The notes below the pieces were generated by a model that saw nothing but the letters and a program-made list of their open reading frames with translations, had not been told where the DNA came from and ran no database searches. The position numbers and the translations under genes were made by a program. A DNA stretch of 64,000 nucleotides, taken from Modicisalibacter luteus DSM 23508. Its GTDB lineage: Bacteria > Pseudomonadota > Gammaproteobacteria > Pseudomonadales > Halomonadaceae. The stretch lies in NCBI RefSeq assembly GCF_000378505.1, contig NZ_KB899991.1, positions 306,824 to 370,823 of the forward strand, written 5' to 3'. This document shows positions 5,474 to 62,502 of this stretch, in pieces (within the stretch, counting starts at the first letter, position 1; every line of letters starts with the position of its first letter).

Positions 5474-6247
5474 ATGACCGTCCTAGAAAGCCTGACGCCA
5501 CGCCATGGCCTCAGAGTGCTGATTACTGCCGGCGCCAATGGTATCGGCTTGGCCATCGCCAAAGCCTTCCAAGAAACGGGCGCTCGCGTGCACGTCTGCG
5601 ATATCGACGCCCAGGCCTTGGCCGCCCTGCCTGAAGGCATCACTCACACCCAGGCCGATGTCAGCCAGGAAGCGGACGTTGATCGTCTCTTCCAGGATGC
5701 CGCCGCTCTGGGCGGGCTGGACGTAGTCGTCAATAACGCTGGCATTGCCGGGCCCACTGCCGGGATTGATGAGATCGATCAAGACGCCTGGACCCGCACC
5801 ATCGACATCAACCTCAACGGCCAGTACCGGGTCGCTCACCGCGCCGCCCCACTGTTGCGCGAGAGTCAGGGGCTGCTGATCAACCTGGCGTCGGTCGCCG
5901 GCCGTCTAGGCTTTGCCTACCGCACTCCCTACGCCGCCAGTAAATGGGCCGTCGTTGGCTTAACCAAGAGCCTGGCCATCGAACTCGGCCCCGAGGGGGT
6001 GCGGGTGAATGCCATCCTGCCCGGCATTGTTCGGGGCCCACGCATCGAAAAGGTCATCGAGGATCGGGCCGCCAAGCGCGGGATCAGCTACGCCGAGATG
6101 GAAGAGGAAAACCTTGCCAAGATCTCTATGCGTCGGATGGTGGAACCCAGCGACATAGCGGCCATGGCGCTATTCCTATCGGCGCCGGGCGGCACCAACA
6201 TTTCAGGCCAGGCGCTGAGCGTCTGCGCCAACGTCGAATCACTGTGA
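5474..6247 (+). CDS. Short-chain dehydrogenase/reductase (SDR)
   Basis: A 257-residue NAD(P)-dependent oxidoreductase. The nucleotide motif reads AGANGIGLAIA (19-29, Ala in place of the usual first Thr), followed by an acidic residue in DID (about 43-45, favouring NAD), NNAG (90s), the Ser in LASVAG and the YAASK catalytic pair. It ends in ISGQALSVCANVESL rather than the common VDGG end. It is encoded 22 bases after dctM and 19 before the next dehydrogenase, so it probably oxidises a hydroxy acid brought in by the TRAP system. The substrate is not known. Confidence 0.85.
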   Translation: MTVLESLTPRHGLRVLITAGANGIGLAIAKAFQETGARVHVCDIDAQALAALPEGITHTQADVSQEADVDRLFQDAAALGGLDVVVNNAGIAGPTAGIDEIDQDAWTRTIDINLNGQYRVAHRAAPLLRESQGLLINLASVAGRLGFAYRTPYAASKWAVVGLTKSLAIELGPEGVRVNAILPGIVRGPRIEKVIEDRAAKRGISYAEMEEENLAKISMRRMVEPSDIAAMALFLSAPGGTNISGQALSVCANVESL

Positions 6248-6266
6248 CCTGCAAAGGATTGACCTC

Positions 6267-7202
6267 ATGACAACTCGGATAGGTATCGTCGGTGCCGGCC
6301 TGATCGGCCGCGCCTGGGCCATCGTCTTCGCCCGGGCCGGCATGTCCGTGTCCCTCTACGATGTGGATGCCGATGCCCTGGATAAGGCCCGGGAGGCCAT
6401 CCGCCAATCCCTCAATGATCTCCAGCAGGCCGGCCTGATAGAGAACGTTGACGCCCCCCTGGCACTTATTCAGGTGGAAAGCGACCTGTTGCGCGCCATG
6501 GCAGGCGCAGAATATATCCAAGAATGTGGCCCAGAGAATTGCGAGGCCAAGCGGCGCATTTATACCGACCTGGAGGCTGTCGCGTCTGAGGACACCGTGC
6601 TGGCCAGCTCCACCTCGGGTATCGCCGCCTCGCAGTTTACTGATCATCTGCGCCACCCCGAGCGCTGCCTGGTCGCGCACCCAGTCAACCCGCCCTACCT
6701 CATCCCACTGGTCGAGGTCGCCCCCGCCCCGGCCACTTCAGAGGCAGCGGTGAACCGCACCATGCGCCTCATGGAGCAGGCTCAGCAGGCACCCATTCTG
6801 GTCCGCAAGGAAGTTCAAGGTTTCATCCTCAACCGTCTGCAGGGCGCCCTACTCAACGAGGCACTGCGCCTGTTCCGCGACGGCTACGTCTCCGCTGAGG
6901 ACCTTGACAAGACCGTCAAGCACGGGCTGGGGCTGCGCTGGTCCTTTATGGGGCCCTTCGAGACCATCGATCTCAATGCGCCATCCGGCGTGGTGGACTA
7001 TGGCCAGCGCTACGGCCCACTGTACCGCGACGTTGATCGTCAGCGTAATGACGACGATCCATGGGATGCCGCGACGCTCGCCGCACTGGACAAGGAGCGC
7101 CGGGAACGGCTTCCGACCGACGGGCTCGCCGACCGCCAAGCCTGGCGCGATCGTCGCCTCATGGCGCTGATGGCCCACCAGCGCAACGTTTCCCCTTCCT
7201 AA
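6267..7202 (+). CDS. 3-hydroxyacyl-CoA dehydrogenase-like / lambda-crystallin (L-gulonate 3-dehydrogenase) family
   Basis: A 311-residue NAD-dependent 3-hydroxy acid dehydrogenase. The N-terminal Rossmann motif is GIVGAGLIGRAWA (6-18) with Asp at the end of strand 2 (LYDVD, NAD preference). The catalytic region SSTSG, HPVNPPYLIPLVE (His-Pro) and the C-terminal GLGLRWSFMGPFETIDLNA match lambda-crystallin/L-gulonate dehydrogenases and L-carnitine dehydrogenases rather than acyl-CoA enzymes. It oxidises a 3-hydroxy acid to the 3-oxo acid. The next gene, a BKACE, would consume that product, so the two form a plausible two-step route. Carnitine dehydrogenase is an alternative, but the fused thioesterase domain often seen there is missing. 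Confidence 0.82.
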   Translation: MTTRIGIVGAGLIGRAWAIVFARAGMSVSLYDVDADALDKAREAIRQSLNDLQQAGLIENVDAPLALIQVESDLLRAMAGAEYIQECGPENCEAKRRIYTDLEAVASEDTVLASSTSGIAASQFTDHLRHPERCLVAHPVNPPYLIPLVEVAPAPATSEAAVNRTMRLMEQAQQAPILVRKEVQGFILNRLQGALLNEALRLFRDGYVSAEDLDKTVKHGLGLRWSFMGPFETIDLNAPSGVVDYGQRYGPLYRDVDRQRNDDDPWDAATLAALDKERRERLPTDGLADRQAWRDRRLMALMAHQRNVSPS

Positions 7203-48847: not shown

Positions 48848-49369
48848 TCACACCAATTTGTCTTGCTCAGCGGCAAGCTCTTCGGCCAAGCTGACAGGTG
48901 GCTTCACCCAAGCCTCGCGGATGACCCAGCAGTAACGGATGATGAGCAGTACCCCCGATAAGCCAATAGGGAAATAAACCCATGCCATCGGCATACGTAG
49001 AGCGGGAGAAAGCATTCCTCGATCAAGCGTACTGCTGAAGAGCTTGAAACCGAGGTAAGCCAGAGCAATGGCGAAAGCGATACCCAGCACCGCAGAGGTA
49101 ATGTGCAACCACCGGTTCACCGCGGGAGGTACCAGAGCATTAAGAACATCTACAGAAATATGAACTCCATGGCGAACCCCCATGCTGGCGCCTACAAAGC
49201 TCATGCAAACGATAGAATAGATAACGACTTCTTCAGCCCAAGATAAAGAGTTGTTAAAACCGTAGCGATAGACAACCTGGAAAGCAGTGACGGTGGTCGC
49301 AATCGACATGAATGCGACCATCGCCACGTTTTCCAAGCGATCAATAAGTTTATTGAGCGCTTCAAACAT
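48848..49369 (-). CDS. TRAP transporter small membrane subunit (DctQ family)
   Basis: A 173-residue four-helix membrane subunit. FQVVYRYGFNNSLSWAEEVVIYSIVCMSFVGASMGVRHGVHISVDVL contains the usual W-x-E-E and R-x-G-x-H-I-x-V-D features. It starts 3 bases after the binding-protein stop. Confidence 0.9.
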   Translation of the reverse strand: MFEALNKLIDRLENVAMVAFMSIATTVTAFQVVYRYGFNNSLSWAEEVVIYSIVCMSFVGASMGVRHGVHISVDVLNALVPPAVNRWLHITSAVLGIAFAIALAYLGFKLFSSTLDRGMLSPALRMPMAWVYFPIGLSGVLLIIRYCWVIREAWVKPPVSLAEELAAEQDKLV

Positions 49370-49372
49370 AGA

Positions 49373-50374
49373 TCAGTACTCGATACCAGCGGCGTCGGTT
49401 GTTTTCTTCAGCAATTCGGGAGTCACGATATCCTCATATTCTTTGTAGACAGGAATACTTGCCTCGATGAAAGCGCTCCTTGCCTCTTCTGTGATCTCGT
49501 TGATCTGGATATCGCCCTTGATATTCTCAAGGATTTTGTCTTCCTGCTGCCGAGTAAGCTCACGAGATGTCTCGCGGCCGTTATCGAAAGCTTCGACCAT
49601 AACCTTTTGCAGATCCTCGGGTAGCGATTCCCAAGATTGCTTATTCATGACTGTCGCATAGGCATGGTAGGCGTGGTTAGTCAACGATAGGTAATCCTGC
49701 ACTTCATGGAAGCGCATGGTATAGATATTAGCCAATGGATTCTCTTGGCCTTCTACGACCCCCTGCTGGAGCCCGTTATAGACCTCAGTAAAAGCCATAG
49801 CCGTAGCATTGGCGTCGAAATTCTCATAAGTTGAGATAATAACCGGCGCCTGCATGGTCCGCATGCGGATGTCTTCGAGATCTTCTGGCGTTTCAATCGG
49901 ACGGATATTATTGGTCATGTGCCGGAAACCAGCACCCCAGAAGTTGAACGCATGCATGTTGTCATCTTCGAGAGTATCGAGGATTTCACGGCCTACCTCG
50001 CCATCAAGAACAGTTACCATGGTCTCGTAGTCGGACAGCAGAAACGGCAAATCGAGAATCTGCATGCGTGGTTCGAAATTACCTAAAGTCGCAGTAGGCG
50101 GAATACCAATATCGACCAGCCCCATTTGAATCTGTTCGATGATTTCTACATCGCCCCCTACTTGAGCGGCCGGCAGCACCTCGATGCTAATCTGGCCATT
50201 GGATTTTTCCTCGACTTCCTCTTTGAAACGTAGAGCGGCTTGGGCGTTGGGGGTATCTTCGATTAGCACATGTGCAAAGGTGAAGTTGTATTCCGCAGCT
50301 TGCGCTTGAGTCATACCGAAAGAGACTGCAGCGATGGCAGTTGCTAATGAGATCTTAGTCATTTTATGGCTCAT
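49373..50374 (-). CDS. TRAP transporter substrate-binding protein (DctP family)
   Basis: A 333-residue periplasmic binding protein with a signal peptide ending AQAA-EYNFTF. DctP features: FKEEVEEKSNGQISIEVLPAAQVG, IRMRTMQAPVIISTYENFDANATAMAFTEVYNGLQQGVVEGQENPLANI, with the carboxylate Arg in RMRTM. It delivers a carboxylate to the adjacent QM pair. Linked amidases, M20 hydrolase and asparaginase suggest an acid with an amide or ureido group. Confidence 0.92.
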   Translation of the reverse strand: MSHKMTKISLATAIAAVSFGMTQAQAAEYNFTFAHVLIEDTPNAQAALRFKEEVEEKSNGQISIEVLPAAQVGGDVEIIEQIQMGLVDIGIPPTATLGNFEPRMQILDLPFLLSDYETMVTVLDGEVGREILDTLEDDNMHAFNFWGAGFRHMTNNIRPIETPEDLEDIRMRTMQAPVIISTYENFDANATAMAFTEVYNGLQQGVVEGQENPLANIYTMRFHEVQDYLSLTNHAYHAYATVMNKQSWESLPEDLQKVMVEAFDNGRETSRELTRQQEDKILENIKGDIQINEITEEARSAFIEASIPVYKEYEDIVTPELLKKTTDAAGIEY

Positions 50375-50424
50375 TTCATTACCTATCAGTCATTGTGGTT
50401 TTGCGAACACTGCTATTGCAGGGG

Positions 50425-51420
50425 TTATGCTACGTATGCCTGCTTCATCCGGGTAGAAACATCCTCCGTTGCTTCAATGGAAAGCATGACAGCGAGTGCC
50501 AATCGCGCCTTACGCGCACTGAGATCTGTGGCTGCAATTACACCGCGCTCCTCCAGGCTCGCAAGGCTGCCAGGAAATTCGTAGCTCGGATGGACCGGTC
50601 CTTGATAGCAGGAACTGACTACCAGCACCGGTATACCGACCTGCGCAGCTCGACCTATTGCATCTAGCCAACTGGGCGGTACATGCCCGCGCCCCAAACC
50701 TTCAATTACTAGCCCTTCAGCACCGCCCGAAATAGCGGCATCGATCATTGTGCTGCTGGCATCCAAGTAGGCAGGTACGATAGCAACTTGTGGGAGCATC
50801 TCGCCCAAGGGTAAAGGAGCCGGCCTGCGTACCGCCTGGGCCAGGTGCACTCGGCTGCCATCAACATATCCCAGTTTGCCATAGCCCGGTGAGTCAAAAC
50901 CTTGGACTTGATACGTGCTGACCTTTCGTACATGGCGTGCGGCAAACAGTGATTCATTGAATACCACTACGGCCCCCACCCCCTGCATGACAGGATCCGC
51001 CGCTACAGTGATAGCATTTGCGATGTTGCGGAAGGCATCAGTACCCTCCTCGTGAGGAGCACGCTGGGAGCCAGTAATGACTAACGCACAGGCCTCAAGG
51101 GGTAATGTGACGTCTAGGAAATATGCCGTTTCTTCTAGCGTATCAGTCCCATGCGTAATGACGATCCCATCCACATCAGCTCTGTTAGCCAGCTCCTTAC
51201 AAAGGTGATGTATTTTCAGCAAGTCCGCCAAGGTAATCGCATTGCTGGGTTTCTGCAGGATAGAGTGAACTTGCACATTCACCCCGCCATCTTTAGGTAA
51301 GGTGACATGCTCTAGCAGTGTCTCACCACTTAGCGCACCGGAAGCATTGCGGCCCGTGCCATCAAGTGCGCTGGCGATCGTGCCACCTGTGGTCAGCACG
51401 ACGACATTTCGTTCTTTCAT
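50425..51420 (-). CDS. L-asparaginase / glutaminase-type amidohydrolase
   Basis: A 331-residue asparaginase. The first catalytic Thr is in VVLTTGGTIAS (8-18), and the second motif is VITHGTDTLEETAYFLD (Thr, Asp) with the catalytic Lys in SQRAPHEEGTDAFRN region shifted from the usual form (ITGSQR). There is no signal peptide, unlike periplasmic type II enzymes of similar size. It is the first gene of the minus-strand operon with the TRAP system. Asparagine or another side-chain amide may be the substrate. Confidence 0.85.
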   Translation of the reverse strand: MKERNVVVLTTGGTIASALDGTGRNASGALSGETLLEHVTLPKDGGVNVQVHSILQKPSNAITLADLLKIHHLCKELANRADVDGIVITHGTDTLEETAYFLDVTLPLEACALVITGSQRAPHEEGTDAFRNIANAITVAADPVMQGVGAVVVFNESLFAARHVRKVSTYQVQGFDSPGYGKLGYVDGSRVHLAQAVRRPAPLPLGEMLPQVAIVPAYLDASSTMIDAAISGGAEGLVIEGLGRGHVPPSWLDAIGRAAQVGIPVLVVSSCYQGPVHPSYEFPGSLASLEERGVIAATDLSARKARLALAVMLSIEATEDVSTRMKQAYVA

Positions 51421-51477
51421 TGGTAATACACCGTGTTGCTGGCAAGGGCATTACCCTAAGCCCAGCTGAATACCCAA

Positions 51478-51494
51478 CAGACATCTGATGTCTG
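51478..51494. promoter_or_regulatory. 17-bp perfect palindrome, likely GntR operator
   Basis: CAGACATC-T-GATGTCTG lies in the divergent region between the asparaginase and the GntR gene, about 58 bases before the asparaginase start. Overlapping TCTGATG repeats follow it. Position and symmetry suit autoregulation and control of the amide/TRAP operon by the GntR protein. Confidence 0.65.
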
Positions 51495-51629
51495 ATATCT
51501 ATCTTCATGCTAGGCTTGCCTTGGCGCCTAGTACAAGGGCTACGTACCGCTTGGGGCCGAAAGTTATACTAATGGATAGTGCTGCAGTCCATGCGCAGCA
51601 GTATCACATGCTTTACCGAGACGAAAATC

Positions 51630-52385
51630 ATGAGCCTTAAACATCAGCCGCATGTTCAATCGCTGGATTCCGACAGGCTAGGAGGAGCTATTAAACGTAG
51701 TTCTGTTGCTTTTCAGATATTAGAGCGCATCAAAACTGCGTTGATCCGTGGGGAATTGCGGCCAGGAGATTACTTGCCTTCAGAGACGGAGCTGACGCAG
51801 AGTCTAGGGATTGGCAAGTCGAGCGTGCGCGAAGCTATCAAGATGCTTCAGGCCATAGGCATCGTCGAAGTGAGGCGCGGCCAAGGCACTATTATTCGCC
51901 GAGAACCGGGCGATCCCCTTGTGGATCCTATGGCTTTCGGGATGATTCTAGCACGGGGGATGACCCGAGATGTTCTGGAGTTTCGCCGGATGTTCGAGCC
52001 GGCCTATACGCTCCAGGCGATGTCCAATGCTACCCCTGAAGACCATGCACGAATCCAGCAGACCATCGATGACATGGAAGCTGCCATCGCCCACGGTGAA
52101 CAGACCTCCCATCACGATGTCGCCTTCCACCGTGCCATTCTTCACGCCACTCACAACCCGATGACGATTCGCGTGGGAGAGACATTACTGCAATTGATCG
52201 AGGCAGCGCTTGAAACATCCATGCAAACGCTGCCTGAAGTTGCTCTTAAAGACCATAAAAATATCTACAAGGCTTTTAAGGCTGGTGATGCAAAAGGCGT
52301 GCAGGATGCTATTGAAGTGAGCGGTAGAAGTTGGGAGACTGAACTTACTTATCCAGATCAGAAAGACGTATCCCTCAATACTTGA
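51630..52385 (+). CDS. GntR-family (FadR subfamily) transcriptional regulator
   Basis: A 251-residue regulator from the ATG at 51630; a GTG 17 codons upstream is less likely. The winged HTH is at about 40-100 (GELRPGDYLPSETELTQSLGIGKSSVREAIKMLQAIGIVEVRRGQGT). The FCD effector domain has the metal-binding residues R-E-F-R-x-x-F-E, HHDVAFHRAILHATHNP and DHKNIYKAFKAGD. It is divergent from the amide-catabolism/TRAP operon and is its probable repressor. Confidence 0.9.
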   Translation: MSLKHQPHVQSLDSDRLGGAIKRSSVAFQILERIKTALIRGELRPGDYLPSETELTQSLGIGKSSVREAIKMLQAIGIVEVRRGQGTIIRREPGDPLVDPMAFGMILARGMTRDVLEFRRMFEPAYTLQAMSNATPEDHARIQQTIDDMEAAIAHGEQTSHHDVAFHRAILHATHNPMTIRVGETLLQLIEAALETSMQTLPEVALKDHKNIYKAFKAGDAKGVQDAIEVSGRSWETELTYPDQKDVSLNT

Positions 52386-52719: not shown

Positions 52720-54429
52720 TCAATCATTAGGTTCCAAGATTTCCCTAACAAGCGCCGGATCGGCTTTAAGCTTTCTAACGGCCGTTGCTTGACTGATGCT
52801 GAGATGACTAGCGGCAGCCCGCGTAGTCCCGTATTTCTCTACAGCTTCTCGTACCAAGCCAGCTTCGAAACGCGCCACGCGTGTTTTGAAATCCATTTCC
52901 GGTTTCTCGAGCGGGTTCGGACCTGGCCGGAGCTGTTTAGGTAAATCATCCGTGGCGATAAGTTCATAGGGTGAAGTCACAACTAACCGTTCGATGATAT
53001 TGCGAAGCTCCCGAACATTGCCCGGCCAGCCATAAGTTAATAAACACTGTAATGCTCGTTCAGAAAGCCGCTTACTTAGGCCGTACTGTGCATTGAAATC
53101 GTCTAGGTAACGCTGTACCAAGGGAAAAATGTCTTCCCGGCGCTCCTTGAGGGGCGGGATATTGATCGGCACGATATTGAGGCGGTAGTAAAGATCATTA
53201 CGGAAGCGCTTTTGCTCGACCATAGTCTCTAAGTCGACATTGGTGGCAGCGATGATCCGTAGATCCACTTCAATGGTGCGAGTGCCGCCGACGCGGCTGA
53301 AGGAGTGATCCTGCAACACTTGGAGCATCTTGACCTGTAGTTCCAGCGGCAACTCGCCGATTTCATCGAGAAAGAGCGTCCCTCCGTTCGCAGTCTCGAT
53401 CAAGCCAACCTTACCCTGACGATGAGCGCCGGTGAATGCGCCGCTTTCGTAGCCAAATAGCTCTGACTCCAGTAGATCCCGAGGGATAGCGCCACAATTG
53501 ATCTTGATGAAAGGCCCTCTACTGCGGCTACTTTCCCGGTGTATGAGCTTGGCTACAACCTCTTTTCCCACGCCCGATTCCCCAGTAATTAGGATGGTAG
53601 TGTCTACTTTTGCTACCCTGGCCGCCAAGGTGGCGATGCGCTGCATATTTGGGCTATTGAGCACGATGCCTTCGAATTTCAGGTTCGCACGTCGCAGCTC
53701 GCAAACCTCAGTCTCCATACGACGCAAATTGTCTTGTGCACGTGCCAGCTCCTCCTGCAACTTTAGCAATTCGGTGGTATCACGGGAGTTGATGATGACA
53801 CGCCGGACTTTGCCCTCGTCGTTGAATAGCGGGATACCTGTGACCATTATCGTTTTGCCGGTATGCGTCCGCTGCACGGCTGTGATGCGTTGGCGCTCGG
53901 CAACCACGCGTCCGGCTATTACCGGTTTGATAAGGCCTTTTTTCTCGAATTCTGCAACGTTTTTGCCAACCATTTCTTCAGCTTTAAGATCGTAGTTGCG
54001 CTCGCTTCCCTCATTGACCATCAGCGTATTACCTTCGCCATCAGCCACGAAGATACCATCGAAGGAGTTACGAAATATTTCTTGGAAGTCCCGAAATGAT
54101 TGCTTGAGTCGATTCAGTTCGGGCTGGATGCCTTCAAGCAGCGACATCGGCAATAGTAGAAGCGCACATGCGTTATCGAAGAGACGGACTGACCGGACGA
54201 AATGAGGCTCGTTACCAATACAGTACGACCCATGATCAGCAGCCTGCGAGGGGTCGGCTAATCTGCATAGCAGCGGCTCGCGTTGACACAGCTCTGCATA
54301 AGTTGTCGGTGCAGCTCCCAAGCTGCTACGTGCCGCTGGGTTGATGTAGAGGGTCTCACCGGGCTGTATCAGGATCACCCCAAGAGGAAGGCCTTCAAGC
54401 AAGCGGGCGGCTAAGCGAGGCTGTTCCAT
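52720..54429 (-). CDS. Sigma-54-dependent activator of the haloacid operon, PAS-AAA+-Fis
   Basis: A 569-residue enhancer-binding protein from the ATG at 54429 (GGAGAT ribosome site). The N-terminal 90 residues and a second part (about 115-230, NSFDGIFVADGEGNTLMVNEGSERNYDL) are PAS-like sensors. The AAA+ domain has GESGVGKEVVAKLIH, GAFTGA and GGTLFLDEIGELPL. The Fis-type HTH is YGTTRAAASHLSISQATAVRKL. It is divergent from the symporter-dehalogenase operon, with two direct repeats and a -24/-12 promoter between. A sigma-54 activator (DehR) also controls dehI in Pseudomonas, which supports the role. Confidence 0.9.
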   Translation of the reverse strand: MEQPRLAARLLEGLPLGVILIQPGETLYINPAARSSLGAAPTTYAELCQREPLLCRLADPSQAADHGSYCIGNEPHFVRSVRLFDNACALLLLPMSLLEGIQPELNRLKQSFRDFQEIFRNSFDGIFVADGEGNTLMVNEGSERNYDLKAEEMVGKNVAEFEKKGLIKPVIAGRVVAERQRITAVQRTHTGKTIMVTGIPLFNDEGKVRRVIINSRDTTELLKLQEELARAQDNLRRMETEVCELRRANLKFEGIVLNSPNMQRIATLAARVAKVDTTILITGESGVGKEVVAKLIHRESSRSRGPFIKINCGAIPRDLLESELFGYESGAFTGAHRQGKVGLIETANGGTLFLDEIGELPLELQVKMLQVLQDHSFSRVGGTRTIEVDLRIIAATNVDLETMVEQKRFRNDLYYRLNIVPINIPPLKERREDIFPLVQRYLDDFNAQYGLSKRLSERALQCLLTYGWPGNVRELRNIIERLVVTSPYELIATDDLPKQLRPGPNPLEKPEMDFKTRVARFEAGLVREAVEKYGTTRAAASHLSISQATAVRKLKADPALVREILEPND

Positions 54430-54526
54430 TCTATCTCCGTGAACGCATCGATCGGTGGGCCTAAGCGTGTCAAGAAGCACGTGTGCCTTTGGTGGCCTGT
54501 GCTCTATTTCAAACATGGCATTAGAT

Positions 54527-54560
54527 TCAAATATGAATCAAACATACTCAAATATGAATC
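54527..54560. promoter_or_regulatory. Upstream activator sites: two direct repeats 21 bases apart
   Basis: TCAAATATGAATC occurs at 54527-54539 and 54548-54560, exactly 21 bases (two helical turns) apart. The first copy extends to GATTCA-AATA-TGAATC, an inverted repeat. They lie about 100 bases upstream of the sigma-54 promoter, as expected for binding of the divergent activator. Confidence 0.7.
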
Positions 54561-54647
54561 ACTCGATAGTCGAACCCGGACTGATATTCTGTCTACTGCC
54601 GGTGAGTTAATTTCAACTTATTGTTTTAGCTAAGAAAGGCACTGACT

Positions 54648-54661
54648 GGTCTACGGTTTGC
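54648..54661 (+). promoter_or_regulatory. Putative sigma-54 (-24/-12) promoter of the haloacid operon
   Basis: TGGTCTACGGTTTGCC has GG at 54648-54649 and GC at 54660-54661 with the required 10-base gap, plus the preferred TTTGC at -12. Transcription would start near 54673, giving a leader of about 60 bases before the symporter small subunit. Confidence 0.7.
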
Positions 54662-54732
54662 CAAACACTAAGGAGCGCAACGCATGCCAGCCTCAACGGG
54701 TGAGTTGCCCAAACCTTACCGGAGGGAAAACA

Positions 54733-55077
54733 ATGAGCGCATATAAGAAGGAGGCAGTCCTGACGATAGGCTTTTTTGTTGCCTATATACTAATGGCGCA
54801 TACGGCTCCATGGGCCATCGTCTTGGGCGTCGACAACTCGGTCCGAGTGCTCGGATTCCCGCTGCACTATTTTTTGGCGGTTGTAATGGGATGGTTCGGC
54901 GTGCTCGCTGTATCGATCGCCTGGAACCATTACGCCGACAAACTTGAAGAAGAGATTATAGCCGAGGACGAAAACTGCACTCCGGCGCACAATGACAAAA
55001 TGCTCTTCAAGGCGCCTGATACTCCCTCTGTCCTCAGCGAGAAGAAGCAAGGATCACTCAGGGAGGGAACCCAATGA
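54733..55077 (+). CDS. Small subunit of a sodium/solute symporter (DUF4212/DUF485-like)
   Basis: A 114-residue membrane protein from the ATG at 54733, which follows GGAGGG. It has two hydrophobic segments (about 8-30 and 40-65) and an FPLHYFLAVVMGWFGVLAVSIAW stretch of the type seen in small partners of SSS symporters. The C-terminal 45 residues are hydrophilic and acidic. It overlaps the symporter start by 4 bases, so the two are coupled. It probably stabilises or helps the symporter. Confidence 0.75.
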   Translation: MSAYKKEAVLTIGFFVAYILMAHTAPWAIVLGVDNSVRVLGFPLHYFLAVVMGWFGVLAVSIAWNHYADKLEEEIIAEDENCTPAHNDKMLFKAPDTPSVLSEKKQGSLREGTQ

Positions 55078-56714
55078 ACGATATTATCTGGCAACTGGAT
55101 AATCTCTGGCTGGGTATTGGCATTACAACTGCCGTCTTTTGCCTCTATTACGCTGTCGCGCTATACGCCCGCACCGACACGCAGGATACGGCGGATCTTT
55201 ATGTCGCCGGGCGCTCGATCGGCCCCGTAATGAACTCGCTGGCTGCGGCTTCGACGTGGATGAGCGTTGCCACTTTCCTTGGTGTAGTGGCGCTTATTCA
55301 ACAGCTTCATATGCCTTTCGTTTATATGTGGATCCAGCTCATCGTCAGCCTCCCGCTGTTAGTGCTGTTCTATGGTGCCATGCTGCGACGGCTCGGCGTT
55401 TTTACCTCCGTTTCTTTCGTTCGGATCCGCTACGGGCAGCCTGTCGCCTACGTGGCGGCGGTCTGGATGCTGCTGATCATGCTGATGTACATGATCGGGC
55501 AGTTTGTGGGGATCGCCAAGGTATTCGAGGTTCTACTCGGTCTACCTTACCTCCCGTCGCTAATCCTCTCTGCGTTGGTTATTACAGGATACATCTCTAT
55601 CGGCGGTATGAAGGGAGCAACCTACAACGACGCCATCCAGATGGTCATCATGATGATTGCGCTAGTTGTGCCGCTCGCCGCAATCCTGAAGCAGATGGGG
55701 GCGACGGGGTACGCTTTTCCGCCGCTTGGCTATGGCAACATGACCGACGTTATGCTGGCCAAATTTCCTGAATTCTTTGATCTGAAATTCGATCCCCGCT
55801 TCTACTTGGCCCTATTCGTCGCTCTCACTTTGGGCATTTTGGGCCTACCCCAACTAGCGCAGCGTGTCCTGACATCTTCCAACATGAAATCCGCACGACG
55901 CGTGGTGCCTTGGTTCTGTCTGTGGGTCGGGCTGGCCTTCTCCGCCACCTACGCCATGGGCTTCGCCGGCGTGTTCCATTTCGCCAGCCTGGGACAAGAG
56001 TTACCGCCGGAGGCCGCCGATAAAACCACATTGCTACTGAACCTTGCCTATAACCCCGACTGGGTTAGTGGCTTTGTGATAGCAGGGGTGCTTGCTGCTG
56101 GGGTCTCTACCATTGCCGGGCTAATGATAGGTGTCGCCACGGTTGTCGCCCACGACATCGTAGGCATGTTGCGCCCACAACTACCAGAGAAGAAACGGCT
56201 GCGCTGGGGCTATATAGGTCTGGCCGGAACTGGCATCGTGTCGCTACTGATTTCGCTTAAACCGCCCGCGTTCCTGGTCGTCTCAATATTCTGGGCCTTT
56301 GGCCTGTGTGCGAGCGCTGTAACGCCAATGATCGTTCTTGGCGCCTGGTCCACACGAATCAACCGCTACGGTGCCTTGGCTGGCAGCCTAATAGCCGGTT
56401 TGCTTTATATCGCACTGTCCCCGTATGTATTTCCAGGCTTCGCAGTCGGCAATGGACTTGTCGCCAAGCTCGGTTTTGCACCCGCTCTGATTACGGTGCC
56501 GGTCGGATTCCTCGTAACGGTGTTCATGTCACTGGGTTACGAGCGGGTGGCCGGGCCTGCTTACCAAGATGTTGTCTCCCAAGCGCATGAGCTAGTGGAA
56601 GGCATGCACGGCTGGCGTCACGTTTCAGGTAAGCGTTATGCCGGTACCACATGGCTGTGGATTCTTTGTGTGCTCTGGCTTCCGGTTCTTATTTGGGGGC
56701 TGCAGCCATGGTGA
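55074..56714 (+). CDS. Sodium/solute symporter (SSS family), likely haloacid permease
   Basis: A 546-residue inner-membrane transporter with about 13 segments. SSS features: DTADLYVAGRSIGPVMNSLAAASTWMSVATFLG (helix 1 with the Na site), GYISIGGMKGATYNDAIQMVIMMIAL, LGILGLPQLAQRVLTSSNMKSAR and AAGVSTIAGLMIGVATVVAHDI. It is most like acetate/monocarboxylate members (ActP group), which fits uptake of haloacetates or halopropionates, since it is co-transcribed with two dehalogenases. Substrate inferred from context. Confidence 0.88.
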   Translation: MNDIIWQLDNLWLGIGITTAVFCLYYAVALYARTDTQDTADLYVAGRSIGPVMNSLAAASTWMSVATFLGVVALIQQLHMPFVYMWIQLIVSLPLLVLFYGAMLRRLGVFTSVSFVRIRYGQPVAYVAAVWMLLIMLMYMIGQFVGIAKVFEVLLGLPYLPSLILSALVITGYISIGGMKGATYNDAIQMVIMMIALVVPLAAILKQMGATGYAFPPLGYGNMTDVMLAKFPEFFDLKFDPRFYLALFVALTLGILGLPQLAQRVLTSSNMKSARRVVPWFCLWVGLAFSATYAMGFAGVFHFASLGQELPPEAADKTTLLLNLAYNPDWVSGFVIAGVLAAGVSTIAGLMIGVATVVAHDIVGMLRPQLPEKKRLRWGYIGLAGTGIVSLLISLKPPAFLVVSIFWAFGLCASAVTPMIVLGAWSTRINRYGALAGSLIAGLLYIALSPYVFPGFAVGNGLVAKLGFAPALITVPVGFLVTVFMSLGYERVAGPAYQDVVSQAHELVEGMHGWRHVSGKRYAGTTWLWILCVLWLPVLIWGLQPW

Positions 56715-57211
56715 GCCTAGCACGGCCTTTGCCTGAGCGACTGGCCGGCATCGGCGTGTTGATGCTCGGTGTGGCGTGGAGTCTCGGCATGGCGCTGGCT
56801 AACTGGGATCAGGTCCGCGCTGCCGGACTGCCGATGGGCAGTGCCCTGCTGATGACAACGGTGGGCGGTATGCTGACGGTCGCAGGTGTTTGGTTCGGCG
56901 TCGGAGCGGTGGCCTGGGCGATGGGACGGCTGCTCGGCGGTAAGGCACGCTTCGTCAGGGTATTGTTTGCCGTTTCCGCCGCTGCGCCACCGCTTTGGGT
57001 TGCTGCTCCCGTAGCGATTCTGGCACTAAATGGGGAGAGCTCCATTGCACCTCTGCTAGGGCTTGTGGTCCTTGGCACTGCCACCGCACTAGGCTTCCTC
57101 GCATCGCTGGTAACCGCATTACGAGCGGTAGAGGGCTTTTCTTGGTATCGAGCCTGCGGTTGTGCGGTGCTCACCTTTATGTTCTGTGCCAGCTATCTCT
57201 CTCTGCAATGA
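56708..57211 (+). CDS. Unknown membrane protein linked to the haloacid symporter
   Basis: A 167-residue protein from the ATG at 56708, overlapping the symporter end by 7 bases. It has four or five hydrophobic segments (about 10-28, 38-58, 62-82, 92-112, 118-140, 148-165). I recognise no family. Tight coupling suggests a third part of the transporter or a membrane partner of the following enzymes. Confidence 0.6.
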   Translation: MVSLARPLPERLAGIGVLMLGVAWSLGMALANWDQVRAAGLPMGSALLMTTVGGMLTVAGVWFGVGAVAWAMGRLLGGKARFVRVLFAVSAAAPPLWVAAPVAILALNGESSIAPLLGLVVLGTATALGFLASLVTALRAVEGFSWYRACGCAVLTFMFCASYLSLQ

Positions 57212-57270
57212 ATGCAAACGCAGGCGGCGACCGGATTCGGTTGTCGCTTCATCAAGGAGAAAAATCAATT

Positions 57271-58011
57271 ATGAGCACTTTTGTTTTCGATGCCTATGGC
57301 ACGCTATATGACGTGAATTCCGTCGCCACAGCCACGGAGGAAGCCTTTCCGGGATACGGCGATACTATTACACAGGTCTGGCGGCTCAAGCAGCTCGAAT
57401 ACACCTGGCTTCGCTCGCTGATGGGGCGCTACGAGGACTTTTGGTCTGTCACCCAGGAATCGCTCGCCTACACACTCAATACGCTAGGGCTACAAGCGGG
57501 GCCGGAAACATTCGATAGTATTCTAGATCGTTATCTTCATCTCACCCCGTACCCTGACGCACTGGAAGCACTCGAGGGGCTGCGCGCCGCCGGTCACCAG
57601 GTGGCAATACTTTCGAACGGCAGCCAAGGAATGCTAGACGCCTTGGTAAAAAACACTGGCCTCGATACTGCTCTCGATGCGGTGATTAGCATCGATGAAA
57701 AGCGTCTATTCAAGCCAACCCCCGAGGCATATTCCCTGGTTGCGGAAAAGCTGGGAGCATCGACGGACGAGGTAGTGTTCGTCTCGTGCAATCCATTCGA
57801 CACCTGTGGCGCGAAGAGCTTCGGCTTCAAAGTGGCCTGGATCGAGCGCGTCCCGGCGATCTCACTACAGGCTGAAGTTCATTCTGGGCAGAGTCTCGAA
57901 CCGAGCACCATGTTCAAGGTACTACGCATGCGCATGGACGAACTCAACCTCGATCCAGACGTTCGAATCCATACGCTGCTAGATCTGATCGGGCTGGAAG
58001 CCAACGCCTGA
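57271..58011 (+). CDS. (S)-2-haloacid dehalogenase, type II (HAD superfamily)
   Basis: A 246-residue cytoplasmic enzyme that hydrolyses L-2-haloacids with inversion to D-2-hydroxy acids through an Asp ester. Active-site residues seen: nucleophile Asp7 in VFDAYGTLYD, Arg in KQLEYTWLRSLMGRYEDFW, Ser/Asn in ILSNGS, Lys in RLFKPTPEAY, and the Ser-Asn-Asp set in FVSCNPFDTCGAKSFGFKVAWIER. All match L-DEX-type dehalogenases closely. The ATG at 57271 is chosen with AAGGAG upstream. It is the first of two dehalogenases in this operon. Confidence 0.95.
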   Translation: MSTFVFDAYGTLYDVNSVATATEEAFPGYGDTITQVWRLKQLEYTWLRSLMGRYEDFWSVTQESLAYTLNTLGLQAGPETFDSILDRYLHLTPYPDALEALEGLRAAGHQVAILSNGSQGMLDALVKNTGLDTALDAVISIDEKRLFKPTPEAYSLVAEKLGASTDEVVFVSCNPFDTCGAKSFGFKVAWIERVPAISLQAEVHSGQSLEPSTMFKVLRMRMDELNLDPDVRIHTLLDLIGLEANA

Positions 58012-58103
58012 CTTACTGGCCGCGCCGCTTCGGTGTCGCGGCCATATTTCGCTACGCATGCGTCCTCGGGGTCCCAGTTGATGCTCACAACACAGAAACG
58101 TCG

Positions 58104-59180
58104 ATGAGATCGATTGTCTTTGCCATTGCACAGCGAGTTTCCCAGATAGCCTGGCTGACACACGTGCCCATAAATTCGTTCGCAGTTGCCATTGGTTTGA
58201 GCAGCTTCACCATTACTTTTCGCGAGGTGGAGCGTGCCTTCGGCTTTGCCGGCATAATTGCCGAAGCCATCGCGTTGTTAGCAGTGCTCAGTTTCATGTT
58301 CGCGGCCGGCCTTTATCTGGGCAAGACACTGATGCACTGGTCTCAAGTACGACGCGAGTTCAGCGACCCAGCTGAGATGCAATTATTTGCAATGGTCACA
58401 ATAGCGTTGCTGCTTTTGGCTTTGGTCATCCGGCCGTATGGCGGTGCAGTCACCTTCATAATATGGTCAGTGGCCGCGCTCTCGCATCTCGCGCTTGTGA
58501 TTGTCATCGTTAGGGGCTGGATCCTCAATGCGTTTGAGACCAGAACGTTCAGTCCGGCCTGGATGCTGTCGGTGGGCGGCATTCTGGTTGCCTCCATGAC
58601 AGGGGCTCGGCTCGGCTTCGTCGAGGTAGCATGGTTCTTTTTATCCTCGGGTTTAATGATGTGGATCATCATGTTCACAATCGCTATTCACCGACTTACC
58701 TTTCACGAACGAATTCAGACGTCGCTGACCCCCTCCCTATTCCTCCTGATGACGCCGCCGTCTGCAGCCTTTCTGGCCTATCTGCAGCTAAATGGTGATC
58801 AGCTGGACGTGCTTGCACGAGTATTGTTTTTCACGGCGCTCTTTTTGGCCGGCATTCTCGCCAGTCTCGCCCCAGTGCTGCTTCGTGTAGGCTTTTCTCT
58901 GGGCTGCTGGGCCTTCACTTTTCCCTCAGCAGCGTTGACGATAGCGACGCTACGCTATCATGGCCTTGTCGCAAATAGCCTGTCGTTAGCGCTCGCCAGC
59001 GTAATTCTGAGCATTGCCATTCTACTCTTTGTTGCTACCTGCTGGCGCACCATTGGCTGGCTACTGAGCTTTATGCGCATCCAACATAAGCTGGATTTTG
59101 AGGGTGATAGGCCCTGTAGCGCTGGTCGCAAACGGTACGGTCCAAAGATGGTCGGGCATGCCAAAAATAGTTGGCATTGA
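58104..59180 (+). CDS. SLAC1/TehA-type anion channel (TDT family)
   Basis: A 358-residue membrane protein with about ten hydrophobic segments. The opening PINSFAVAIGLSSFTITFREVERAFG is the TehA/SLAC1 signature around helix 1, and paired helices follow with FSPAWMLSVGGILVASMTG and FLSSGLMMWIIMFTIAIHRLTFHE. SLAC1 homologues are trimeric channels passing chloride, nitrate and other anions. Between two dehalogenase genes, a role in exporting the chloride or bromide they release is a reasonable hypothesis. Tellurite or dicarboxylate transport is the alternative family label. Confidence 0.82.
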   Translation: MRSIVFAIAQRVSQIAWLTHVPINSFAVAIGLSSFTITFREVERAFGFAGIIAEAIALLAVLSFMFAAGLYLGKTLMHWSQVRREFSDPAEMQLFAMVTIALLLLALVIRPYGGAVTFIIWSVAALSHLALVIVIVRGWILNAFETRTFSPAWMLSVGGILVASMTGARLGFVEVAWFFLSSGLMMWIIMFTIAIHRLTFHERIQTSLTPSLFLLMTPPSAAFLAYLQLNGDQLDVLARVLFFTALFLAGILASLAPVLLRVGFSLGCWAFTFPSAALTIATLRYHGLVANSLSLALASVILSIAILLFVATCWRTIGWLLSFMRIQHKLDFEGDRPCSAGRKRYGPKMVGHAKNSWH

Positions 59181-59204
59181 GTAATATAGTTTTGGAGAAA
59201 GTAA

Positions 59205-60128
59205 ATGGTATCTGAGCAACTGAACCAGACGATAAAGGCCTTGCAGCGTCCCGAGAGAGATGTACCGGTCCGGCCATTACCCGAGCATCGTGTAGATGCG
59301 GAACTGGCCCCCACTTATCAGGACCTGAAGGCTACGCTGGGCGTGCCTTGGGTAGGTGTGATCACGCAAGCCGTGGCCCATTACCGTCCGTTCTTTGTGG
59401 AGGCTTGGCGGCAATTTCAGCCCTCGGCGCGTTCGCATTATTTCGAGTCCTGTTGCGATGCTATCCGCCTGACGGCCTGGGAGCAGGCCGGGGATGCCTT
59501 CGACATCGAGTCGCGTACGGGCTCACTGCGCCAGCTTGGTTATTCTGATACCGAACTGGCGCAGATACGCGCGACGCTGGATGTGTTCGATTACGGCAAC
59601 CCTAAGTATCTGGTCTTGGCGACGGCGATCCAGCAGAGCCTTTGTCATGGCCGGAAACTGGGAGGCGATCCGGCTCAAAATCGGCGAGACAGCATGCCCC
59701 GTGCCCCCATCTACCAGACCGATCCTATACCAACGATGATCGAGGAACACCATGCAGTAGAGAGTCTGAATGCGGTATACGAGGATATTAAAGCAACACT
59801 GAATCTTCCTTTCGTTAACAGCGACTACAAGGCGATGGGACGCTGGCCTAGTTATTTGGCGCTAGCCTGGGGCGACCTCAAGCCATCAATCGATAGCGAC
59901 CCTTATGTACGTATTCGCCAGTTGATCCACGAGCAAGCGATAGCGACTGCGGAAAAACTACCGCACACATATTTTTTAGACAGAACACGTGCGATTCAAG
60001 CAGGTTTGAGCGAAGAACAAACTGACGAGCTCATGCAGGTGATTAGCTTATTTCAATGGCTTCTTTCTGGACTCATCCTCAATGTTACGCACTTTAAATT
60101 AGCTATGAGAGAAAAGACAAACAAGTAA
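59205..60128 (+). CDS. dehI: DehI-type (group I) 2-haloacid dehalogenase
   Basis: A 307-residue all-helical enzyme of the DehI family, unrelated to the HAD enzyme, which hydrolyses both D- and L-2-haloacids by direct water attack. The family is an internal duplication, visible here as LAPTYQDLKATLGVPWVGV (about 35-53) and LNAVYEDIKATLNLPFVNS (about 188-206). Only the second half carries the likely catalytic Asp, Asp207 in VNSDYKAMGRWPSYLALAW. It is the last gene of the operon, 24 bases after the anion-channel gene, with GGAG ribosome site. Confidence 0.92.
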   Translation: MVSEQLNQTIKALQRPERDVPVRPLPEHRVDAELAPTYQDLKATLGVPWVGVITQAVAHYRPFFVEAWRQFQPSARSHYFESCCDAIRLTAWEQAGDAFDIESRTGSLRQLGYSDTELAQIRATLDVFDYGNPKYLVLATAIQQSLCHGRKLGGDPAQNRRDSMPRAPIYQTDPIPTMIEEHHAVESLNAVYEDIKATLNLPFVNSDYKAMGRWPSYLALAWGDLKPSIDSDPYVRIRQLIHEQAIATAEKLPHTYFLDRTRAIQAGLSEEQTDELMQVISLFQWLLSGLILNVTHFKLAMREKTNK

Positions 60129-60825
60129 ACCCTGCTGGTTGCCATGACCCTTTATAGCTCCCCAGTGCTATATAGCTTGGAATGACAGCCCACCAGCTTC
60201 GCATGTAGCAGCGATTCGTGTGTTATCCACGAATTGTCGATTAGAGCTTTGCTTGGCTGGAAGCTCTTAGGCGCAGCCCGGGTAGACTGACAACCAAGAT
60301 TCTCTCGGGCCGAGATCGCTACAGCGATAGATTTCGCCGTTACTGCGACCGGTGCAATTATGCGGAACGAGAAATATGGGAGGAATTATGGAGGAACTTT
60401 GCTTCCTTGATTCAACCATAAACGCAGCACCTGCGGTCTTCAATGCCTATGCTACCGCGCAGTGGCTCTTCGATGACAACCCTAAAGGGACGCATGGCAG
60501 TCAATCTGATGTTAAAGGTAAGTTTCGGAGCAACTGGCTTAAACAGCATAGATTTGGGCACTGCCGACGCACGACACTAAAGTGATTAGGGAGAACCCAA
60601 TACAACCTTGTCAGACCGCACAGCTCGCTGGGCTATTGCCGCCCATAGCATATGCCCAGCAACTTGCATAAAAGAGCGACATATCACATTAAAGACGGAC
60701 CTAAACCAAGAGGAAGGTCAAAAACCGACAGTCTCCCCAAGCTTCAGAATAGCTAGCGGCACATCTGATCAAGGCTCAAACCAACCACTGCCAACTCATC
60801 ACCATACCATCTCGGCAATTGTTTA
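60129..60825. other. Intergenic stretch of about 700 bases with one doubtful small frame
   Basis: It separates the haloacid operon from the convergent amine-dehydrogenase operon. A 65-codon frame at 60388-60585 on the plus strand has a strong ribosome site (GGGAGGAATT) and begins MEELCFLDSTINAAPAVF, but no family is recognised. It may be a small protein or a broken gene start. No clear terminator hairpin is seen. Confidence 0.35.
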
Positions 60826-61079: not shown

Positions 61080-61496
61080 TTATTGCCAATCTTCGAGAGC
61101 AGCCATCCTGGCATTCAGTTTTGCTCGCTCGGCTAAGGCGTTATTACTAGCTTGGCGATGCTTGGCAACTTCTTCCGTGGTAAAAGGAATAAAGTTGTTC
61201 ACCGGCGTTTTATGCTTCAGCACCCAGTTGAGTACTGCAGCGGTCTGCCGATCCGTTAAAGGGGAATTGGCCACGCCAGGAGCCCTGATCAGATAGGGCC
61301 GTCCTCCCTTTACGCCAAGGTAACGGTGGGCCTGATTCAATGCAGGTATGGTGCCCACGTTGACGTTAGCACTGTTTCCGTGACATCCCCGACAGCTCAT
61401 CTGGTAAAGCGAGTAGGCGCCTTTGGGCCAGGGGCCTATCGTTTCCGGAGGAACGTCGCCGGCCATGCCGGTGAGTTCGGCGGCTGTCGGAGTCAA
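61080..61496 (-). CDS. Second cytochrome c domain, possibly translated by -1 frameshift
   Basis: About 138 codons of a mono-haem cytochrome c domain with the haem motif CRGCH and the sequence LYQMSCRGCHGNS, ALNQAHRYLGVKGGRPYLIRAPG and SPLTDRQTAAVLNWVL, of the kind found as a small cytochrome beside amine dehydrogenases. It has no signal peptide, which haem attachment in the periplasm requires. Its only upstream start is a TTG overlapping the stop of the previous cytochrome, and the first ATG (61466) has no ribosome site. The -1 frame of the previous gene joins it exactly at an A_AAA_AAG heptamer, so it may be the second half of a 299-residue di-haem protein. Confidence 0.75.
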   Translation of the reverse strand: MTPTAAELTGMAGDVPPETIGPWPKGAYSLYQMSCRGCHGNSANVNVGTIPALNQAHRYLGVKGGRPYLIRAPGVANSPLTDRQTAAVLNWVLKHKTPVNNFIPFTTEEVAKHRQASNNALAERAKLNARMAALEDWQ

Positions 61497-61978
61497 AGCT
61501 TTTTTAGTTGAGTTAGCGCCTCTTCTCGCAGCGAGTGGACCTGTAATGGCGTCACCGACTTTTCGGTCAGCCTCGCCACCTCTTCGGCAGAGAACTCCTC
61601 GATATCAAGGTTGGGATCACCCGGCAGGGTTTCGGTAATGTAATTAAGCAGCGATGCCAACTGCGCATTATCGAACCGCGCCCAAGGCGGCATAACACCG
61701 CTATAGGTTTGCTGGGAAACCGTGATCGAGCCCATCATGCCATGACGAATGACATTTGCCAGATAATGCCTGCCCGAGTCGATCTCACTCCAGGCTGCGA
61801 GGCGTGAACCAAGCGGAGGGTAAACACCAGGTACACCTTCCCCATTGGCTTGGTGACAGGCTGCGCAGTTCTGTTGATATAGAGTAGCGCCTTCGAGATG
61901 ACTACTGTCGGCAGCTATGGCGCTGCCGACAGTCAAACTACTCAGCATGATCACACCAATCACTGAGCTGATTCGCAT
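61493..61978 (-). CDS. Periplasmic cytochrome c of the amine dehydrogenase operon
   Basis: A 161-residue class I cytochrome c from the ATG at 61978, which overlaps the light-chain stop (TAATG) and follows GGGGAGG. A Sec signal peptide ends near GSAIAA-DSSH. Haem site: LYQQNCAACHQANGEGVPGVYPPL, with the axial Met in GVMPPWARF. It would take electrons from the amine dehydrogenase. Its final codons form a slippery heptamer that could extend it into the next haem domain. Confidence 0.88.
   Translation of the reverse strand: MRISSVIGVIMLSSLTVGSAIAADSSHLEGATLYQQNCAACHQANGEGVPGVYPPLGSRLAAWSEIDSGRHYLANVIRHGMMGSITVSQQTYSGVMPPWARFDNAQLASLLNYITETLPGDPNLDIEEFSAEEVARLTEKSVTPLQVHSLREEALTQLKKL
61499..61505 (-). 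promoter_or_regulatory. Candidate -1 ribosomal frameshift site A_AAA_AAG
   Basis: On the minus strand the last codons of the first cytochrome are CTA AAA AAG CTT TGA. The heptamer A_AAA_AAG is in the correct register, as in dnaX. AGAGG lies 13 bases upstream, and a CCGGC-ATG-GCCGG hairpin follows about 30 bases downstream. A -1 shift reads through into the second haem domain. An indel in this six-A run would have the same effect. Confidence 0.5.
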
Positions 61979-62502
61979 TACGCCTCCCCGATCACTACAG
62001 CGCTGGAACAGTGATACATCATGTCCGGTGCGCCATAACACCAAATGATGTCATTGTTCTTTTGGGCACGGTAGGCAGGCAGTTCGCCTTCTAGCCCCAG
62101 ACAGGCACAACGGCCACAGCTACCCTTACCGCAACAGTCACGGTAGGAAATCAGGTAATGTTTGCCGTCGACAGGGTTAAGGCAAGTGCCGACCCATGAT
62201 GTGGGAGCCGGCGAGGTTCCGGGCGGGCAGCTGCTGGGCGTGCCGCCGCAGCAGCTACACACATAGCCGTCAATAGCACAGTAACGCCAATAGTTGCACT
62301 GTGTATCATCATCATCTTGAGTGTCCTGCGCACCGCTTTCTGCTGCGCGAGCCTTACCTCCGCTTCGGTCTATCGGCAATAACGGCAGCACGGCGCTACC
62401 CATGACTATAGTGCCGGTCCAGCTCAGAAAATGCCGGCGGGACAAACCATTGGCTAGGAAACGTGAGGCTCTCTCCACCAGGGTATCGAAATCGAGCGTC
62501 AT
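61978..62502 (-). CDS. mauA: TTQ amine dehydrogenase light (small) subunit
   Basis: A 174-residue periplasmic subunit carrying the tryptophan tryptophylquinone cofactor. A twin-arginine-type signal (SRRHFL, 21-26) precedes the mature part. The TTQ-forming Trp are Trp103 in TSWVGTC and Trp154 in IIWCYG; Asp78 and Asp122 match the residues needed for cofactor formation. Fourteen Cys, 12 of which would form the six conserved disulfides. CSCCGG resembles aromatic amine dehydrogenase (AauA), while EGELPAYR and NDIIWC resemble methylamine dehydrogenase (MauA). The substrate amine is therefore open. Confidence 0.93.
   Translation of the reverse strand: MTLDFDTLVERASRFLANGLSRRHFLSWTGTIVMGSAVLPLLPIDRSGGKARAAESGAQDTQDDDDTQCNYWRYCAIDGYVCSCCGGTPSSCPPGTSPAPTSWVGTCLNPVDGKHYLISYRDCCGKGSCGRCACLGLEGELPAYRAQKNNDIIWCYGAPDMMYHCSSAVVIGEA

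Follow-up and report, generated by a model that had tools for sequence, protein, structure and literature searches.

For which compounds is the gene cluster at positions 52720-60128 of the window made, and how do its two dehalogenases of unrelated fold share them? The window is a 64,000-nucleotide stretch of the genome of Modicisalibacter luteus DSM 23508. An initial annotation had read the cluster as an operon for the uptake and dehalogenation of haloalkanoates. Using profile searches against Pfam and NCBIfam and matches against the PDB, we found a divergent sigma-54-type activator gene on the minus strand and six genes on the plus strand (Table 1), and all of the genes named by the annotation lay where it had placed them. 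The gene content and the complete active sites of both dehalogenases agree with the annotated function. The cluster is probably an inducible operon for the catabolism of short 2-haloalkanoates, chloroacetate and 2-chloropropionate among them, and would work by the steps set out below. This reading draws on gene content, catalytic residues, pocket type and operator conservation, all of which are read from the sequence.

As annotated, the two dehalogenases belong to unrelated folds: HAD type II (TIGR01428) and the DehI superfamily (PF10778). The best PDB match of the HAD enzyme is 1qq5 (DhlB; E = 1.3e-75), and the protein keeps the full active-site set: D7, T11, R38, S115, N116, K148, Y154, S172, N174 and D177. 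In L-2-haloacid dehalogenases (L-DEX), these positions have established catalytic roles, namely those of the nucleophilic Asp and of the Thr, Arg, Ser-Asn, Lys, Tyr, Ser, Asn and Asp residues. Predicted from these residues, the enzyme is best read as an L-2-haloacid dehalogenase. For the DehI-family enzyme, the PDB search gave an E-value of 1.6e-116 with HadD of Pseudomonas putida AJ1, which is D-specific, and of 2.3e-23 with DehI. The top three distinct sequences among its PDB matches are all entries for (R)-2-haloacid dehalogenase; one report assigns 5gzy and 5gzx to HadD AJ1 (PMC8554231). HadD positions were read by eye from the alignment of the two proteins, and the columns were retabulated in an alignment of eight relatives without HadD AJ1. 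The catalytic pair of HadD, Asp205 and Asn131, is kept as D207 and N132, and Y134 as Y135. The HadD structure paper, in the portion available, lists 13 pocket residues, seven of which are not conserved in DL-enzymes (PMC5780510); it prints position 50 once as Lys and elsewhere as Gly, and the PDB sequence has Gly. The window enzyme matches 12 of the 13, the exception being M284, which is replaced by Leu. Given this HadD-type pocket, the operon most likely unites an L-specific with a D-specific enzyme.

Table 1. Features of the cluster and its surroundings, in window coordinates
Feature (predicted product or element)	Position	Strand	Length (aa)	Support or sequence
Sigma-54-dependent activator	52720-54516	-	598	Sigma54_activat 8.7e-72, PAS, AAA+, HTH_50
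Palindrome, predicted operator	54524-54539	+		GATTCAAATATGAATC
Direct repeat, two copies	54527-54540; 54548-54561			TCAAATATGAATCA
Candidate -24/-12 element	54647-54662	+		TGGTCTACGGTTTGCC
Small membrane subunit of two-part sodium:solute symporter	54733-55077	+	114	weak DUF4212/Na_symport_sm, position
Large subunit, SSS symporter	55074-56714	+	546	SSF 1.9e-45
Yip1-domain membrane protein	56708-57211	+	167	Yip1 PF04893, 28.6 bits, exactly at cut-off
Hairpin before L-DEX gene	57223-57248			z-score -3.66
L-2-haloacid dehalogenase, HAD fold, DhlB type	57271-58011	+	246	TIGR01428, 218 bits (cut-off 125)
Hairpin after L-DEX gene	58017-58044			z-score -3.61
SLAC1/TehA-family anion channel	58104-59180	+	358	SLAC1 PF03595 1.3e-37, 130 bits (cut-off 27.9)
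HadD-type D-2-haloacid dehalogenase (group I, DehI superfamily)	59205-60128	+	307	PF10778 1.4e-20
Folded stretch	60110-60240			z-score -2.30
TRAP small permease, solute-binding genes, asparaginase-like gene, GntR/FCD regulator	48848-52385			
Open reading frame	61080-61496			no Pfam match
Cytochrome c gene	61493-62044	-		
Methylamine dehydrogenase light chain	61978-62502	-		TIGR02659, 209 bits

The proposed sequence of events is as follows. In the presence of haloacid, the activator, which from its gene context would be the haloacid-responsive component, would bind a palindrome located some 100 bp before the promoter and turn on the six genes. The two-part sodium symporter would bring haloacid into the cell, where the HAD enzyme would convert the L-form to the D-hydroxyacid through an ester intermediate and the HadD-type enzyme would convert the D-form to the L-hydroxyacid by activated water; chloroacetate could be turned into glycolate by either enzyme. 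The SLAC1-family protein may let the released halide, or acid anions, out of the cell. In this scheme, we infer the substrate of the operon, its induction, the substrate and direction of the symporter, and the halide exit.

The window has the divergent bacterial enhancer-binding protein that marks sigma-54 haloacid operons of the dhlR/dehR kind, and its activator is 53-65% identical to those of five haloacid loci: Pseudomonas sp. Q2-TVG4-2 (L004), Stutzerimonas chloritidismutans AW-1 (L005), an X. dioxanivorans plasmid (L059), Polaromonas JS666 (L096) and B. cepacia plasmid pYS1 (L097). The gap between activator and operon contains a palindrome whose right part recurs 21 nt further on as a direct repeat. 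A similar palindrome, GATTCATATATGAATC, lies in the L004 gap. The motif GATTCA-N4-TGAATC was derived from these two gaps, looked for in other gaps, and then found in those of L096 (GATTCAAAATTGAATC) and L097 (GATTCATATCTGAATC). It is thus present in four of the eight activator-operon gaps examined and absent from those of L005, L059, L013 and L024; the activators of the latter two are more distant (48-49% identical to that of the window). In L005, a frame at 5720-6748 that resembles an insertion-sequence transposase, and that we take to be IS30-like, lies between activator and operon, and the palindrome may be missing there because this frame parts the two. In shuffled gaps, the palindrome arose 0 and 1 times in 20000. 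Across the whole genomes G000 (that of the window, 4.53 Mb) and G641 (4.5 Mb), the palindrome has a single site each, which lies in one of these gaps; the backwards control found none. We take the palindrome to be the predicted binding site of the activator. A literature search on dhlR and related terms returned nothing on point by title.

Downstream of this region, the intergenic distances within the six-gene operon are, from 5' to 3', -4, -7, 59, 92 and 24 nt. Simple pattern scans detected no sigma-70-like site inside the operon on the plus strand and no terminator-like site in its three gaps. Strong RNA hairpins, in stretches picked by eye, flank the L-DEX gene; neither carries a T-run. Another folded stretch spans the end of the HadD-type gene (Table 1).

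The initial annotation spoke of one unknown membrane protein and a possible halide exit. The operon does encode such a protein, although there are two rather than one, the Yip1-domain and the SLAC1-family protein, and the latter gives the exit a concrete candidate. The SLAC1 gene lies between the two dehalogenase genes. Its product matches PDB entries of plant SLAH3/SLAC1 and a bacterial TehA homologue, and F273-P274 align with TehA F262-G263 (positions counted by eye). According to the available text of one paper, TehA F262 corresponds to the gate Phe of SLAC1, F450, next to the kink residue P451 (PMC10645844). F273 and P274 of the window protein line up with the gate Phe (on TM9) and the kink Pro of SLAC1. 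Two points make halide exit our best guess for this candidate: each dehalogenase turnover frees halide, and the dehalogenase gene of some other haloacid loci is accompanied by a member of a different anion-transport family (TM_HPP in L059, HPP in L013 and ClC in L097). Leaving the window aside, six sigma-54-linked loci were compared (L004, L005, L059, L096, L097 and L013), and three of them have a SLAC1, HPP or ClC gene; the count is post hoc and small, and L013 and L097 share plasmid pYS1. As a control, eight other plasmid L-DEX matches were picked with their neighbourhoods unseen and inspected for 5 kb on each side (some cut at the record end). None of the eight had an annotated SLAC1, HPP or ClC gene, the plasmid gene tables being incomplete. 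The same held for L058, L060 and L066, giving 0 of 11 other plasmid L-DEX loci overall; in L058, a chromate transporter gene lies some 7.5 kb off.

The main rival to halide exit, and a serious possibility, is that the SLAC1-family protein exports organic anions (lactate, glycolate or haloacid) or is an incidental gene in the operon. Several findings weigh on this side. Organic acids have been exported from yeast via SLAC1-type anion channels, as described in the accessible part of that work (PMC6765260). The other sigma-54 haloacid loci that were opened showed no SLAC1 counterpart, and, by eye, the gene lacks a clear ribosome site. Moreover, SLAC1 relatives occur in 76 plasmid records, and the two of these neighbourhoods that were opened contained no dehalogenase gene. 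Halide exit is favoured by the position of the gene inside the operon, 24 nt before hadD, by the retained gate Phe and kink Pro, and by the unrelated anion-transport families beside the dehalogenases of L059, L013 and L097. At E<=1e-40, nine of the 275 genomes in the family to which the window belongs had a SLAC1 match; one of the nine is the window genome, and the matches in the other eight are 31-35% identical. No publication linking SLAC1 to haloacids turned up in a literature search, which did list, judging by titles, work on the export of fluoride in organofluorine degradation. The Yip1-domain gene overlaps the symporter gene by 7 nt. At E<=1e-5, the plasmid collection contained no relative of its product, and the single-sequence structure prediction (pLDDT 56) was too poor to use.

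A different division of labour would follow if the DehI-family enzyme took both enantiomers, as the initial annotation had it, so that the two enzymes overlapped in substrate. The enzyme does belong to the same superfamily as DehI. In the available text on HadD AJ1, L288 is the residue that controls stereoselectivity, and L288I alone is reported to let the enzyme accept the L-form (PMC8554231), which indicates that selectivity is easily changed. Nevertheless, all seven of the residues that discriminate D- from DL-enzymes (HadD G50, V51, I52, N203, F281, L285 and L288) are kept in the window enzyme, as G51, V52, I53, N205, F283, L287 and L290, and none of the seven is of the DL type. By contrast, the enzyme of pYS1 differs at all seven positions (A, F, G, A, Y, I and I) and is DL-like by these residues; the protein of genome G155 differs at the majority of them and has no catalytic Asp. 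By BLAST, the window enzyme is about 62% identical to the HadD homologues of L004 and L005 and about 23-24% identical to the DL-like pYS1 enzyme. The pocket thus points to the D-specific HadD type, the non-stereospecific assignment was rejected on this test, and we consider activity on both enantiomers unlikely.

Further findings count on the adverse side of the haloacid operon reading, and concern the promoter and the symporter. The sigma-54 type of the activator is solid, but the upstream -24/-12 element is weak. It has 7 of 12 consensus bases, was equalled or bettered in 477 of 3000 gap shuffles, and is alone not better than chance. The best sites of L004, L005, L059, L096 and L097 have 10-11 of 12 bases (scored without shuffles). 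TGG-N8-TTGC occurs 15 times in the window versus 12.5 expected and the site fits poorly, and we rejected the promoter as independent evidence. It is possible that the promoter changed along with the symporter. The symporter is unlike the ActP type of the five other sigma-54 haloacid loci, to which it is 25-27% (L004, L059, L096 and L097) or 26% (L005) identical.

The small and large symporter genes overlap by 4 nt. The small subunit matches DUF4212 (1.3e-4) and Na_symport_sm (9.3e-4), both below the curated cut-off. The models of the VC_2705-type SSS subfamily were not reached (212 vs 321 bits for TIGR03648; 19.4 vs 26 bits for TIGR03647), and by these scores the symporter is related to that type while lying outside the curated subfamily. 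We propose that the large subunit is a 2-haloacid uptake symporter. In the plasmid collection, it had 256 matches at E<=1e-10 and three at E<=1e-60. These three are all haloarchaeal (L093-L095, from Natronorubrum aibiense, N. bangense and Haloterrigena turkmenica), and their 41-43% identity extends over 97-98% of the protein; among the 20 matches listed, the remaining 17 are at <=32%.

All three haloarchaeal clusters have the gene order DehI-family protein, HAD type II protein, small membrane protein and SSS symporter. They differ from the window in being archaeal, in having no sigma-54 activator in the stretch, and in their active sites. In all five haloarchaeal DehI-family proteins aligned, the catalytic Asp is Ile and Asn131 is Ala or Ser, and in the two of the three HAD type II proteins that were aligned, Ala and Pro replace the active-site Ser and Asn. 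Given these losses, the substrate of the haloarchaeal symporter may not be a haloacid, and these loci were accordingly given less weight as evidence that the symporter carries haloacids. No such symporter was seen within the opened stretch of two further haloarchaeal DehI loci, and we found no publication on haloarchaea with DehI and haloacid dehalogenase. The neighbours of L093-L095 are a methylmalonyl-CoA-mutase-family subunit, a B12-binding subunit, MeaB (not seen in L095) and acyl-CoA genes, a layout that presumably resembles 2-hydroxyisobutyryl-CoA mutase pathways. That the window operon likewise serves a different natural substrate, with haloacid activity secondary, might be suggested by these altered-site DehI- and HAD-type proteins and the B12-mutase and acyl-CoA genes beside the closest plasmid relatives of its symporter, yet both window enzymes keep complete dehalogenase active sites and the regulator is closest, among plasmid matches, to activators of dehalogenase operons, which makes this reading quite improbable.

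How far is the haloacid operon a familiar one? A scan of genome contigs for HadD-type proteins returned three loci, L004, L005 and L006; in L006, the HadD relative is the only counterpart of the window's proteins. L004 and L005 each have the activator, a DUF485 small subunit (a Pfam assignment in L004, a reading frame in L005), an ActP-type symporter, HadD and L-DEX in a row, and the order activator-symporter-dehalogenase recurs in L059, L096 and L097. These two loci share with the window a divergent sigma-54 activator (56-57% identical), a symporter with small subunit, HadD (59-61%), L-DEX (44% in the multiple alignment) and, in L004, the operator palindrome. They differ in that their symporter is of the ActP type (25-26%), their L-DEX is more distant and placed after hadD, and nothing in them matches the SLAC1 or Yip1 protein. 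The hadD-hadL operon of P. putida AJ1 likewise combines a D-specific group I with an L-specific group II enzyme, and the window has a HadD homologue with the same pocket; we know of no SLAC1, Yip1 or two-part symporter gene there. The haloacid gene set of Xanthobacter autotrophicus GJ10 is dhlR-dhlC-dhlB. L059, which is of this kind, resembles the window in its sigma-54 activator, SSS symporter and DhlB-type L-DEX (55%), and in the anion-transport-family membrane protein (TM_HPP) that follows the L-DEX; it differs in having no D-enzyme in the stretch, an ActP-type symporter and HPP rather than SLAC1. In Rhizobium sp. RC1, the D- and L-specific enzyme genes are also adjacent: the accessible portion of the report places dehD 177 bp upstream of dehL, possibly under one promoter. 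It differs in that DehL is divergent, with <18% identity to other L-DEX, and in that dehR sits upstream of dehE (PMC4899344).

As far as our searches go, the SLAC1 gene, the different type of two-part symporter and the predicted operator are new in the window. The annotation knew of no description of the full set as a unit, and had proposed a search for the gene order in other genomes. The exact seven-gene set was indeed not met in the loci opened, but the order activator-symporter-HadD-L-DEX is that of L004 and L005, and the pairing of D- and L-specific dehalogenases is already known, from L004, L005 and Rhizobium sp. RC1 and, to judge by its title, from Barth et al. in 1992, who reportedly described an operon with two dehalogenases of opposite stereospecificity.

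The set is rare among relatives. A HadD-type protein occurs in 3 of the 275 genomes of the window's family, the two others being 35% and 32% identical. In the class sample, it occurs in 11 of 369 genomes including the window's, the other ten with 25-35% identity over partial length. The family of the L004 genome has it in 28 of 398 genomes; only those of L004 and L005 reach 62%, and the remaining 26 matches are short and 26-32% identical. The symporter was found at E<=1e-60 in the window's own genome alone (1/275), and, ranked by E-value, the family's next L-DEX has 38% identity. That HadD (above 35%) and the symporter are confined to this one genome of 275, with the next L-DEX at 38%, fits acquisition as a set, and by these distributions the operon looks to have been acquired as a unit. 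The window's genome (G000) also has a second, diverged DehI-family stretch of two overlapping half-length frames (C13:94651-95344; L026 9053-9926). Frames of 118-158 aa resembling one DehI repeat occur in 9 of 10 class-sample loci and in 17 of 18 loci from the family of L004's genome (L014-L022, L070-L086); nearly all match the second repeat, and L014 matches the first.

Beside the operon lies a TRAP-asparaginase-GntR block. It also adjoins the HadD locus of L004, with 71-87% identity, but the L005 genome offers no more than an asparaginase match at 27%. Of the 126 genomes in the family sample, 14, among them the window genome, have a related asparaginase (E<=1e-60). The block is a neighbour of the operon, its relation to it unproven. 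Downstream are a cytochrome c gene and one for the methylamine dehydrogenase light chain.

A fuller picture, which we put forward tentatively and regard as rather doubtful in its entirety, is a complete mirror-image haloacid circuit in one operon: a dedicated symporter of the type found in the haloarchaeal DehI/HAD clusters, an L-specific and a D-specific dehalogenase, a SLAC1-family channel recruited for halide exit, and a palindrome serving haloacid activators as a private operator across beta- and gammaproteobacteria. If true, haloacid operons would swap unrelated anion exits (SLAC1, HPP and ClC) as interchangeable modules. A SLAC1 gene within a dehalogenase operon makes the way in which cells shed freed halide a question open to simple gene deletion. 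The palindrome may serve as a searchable mark of haloacid operons and would let the binding target of their sigma-54 activators be tested directly. Finally, through the symporter that it shares with the haloarchaeal clusters, this bacterial operon draws attention to a transporter type whose possible role in haloacid uptake merits testing.

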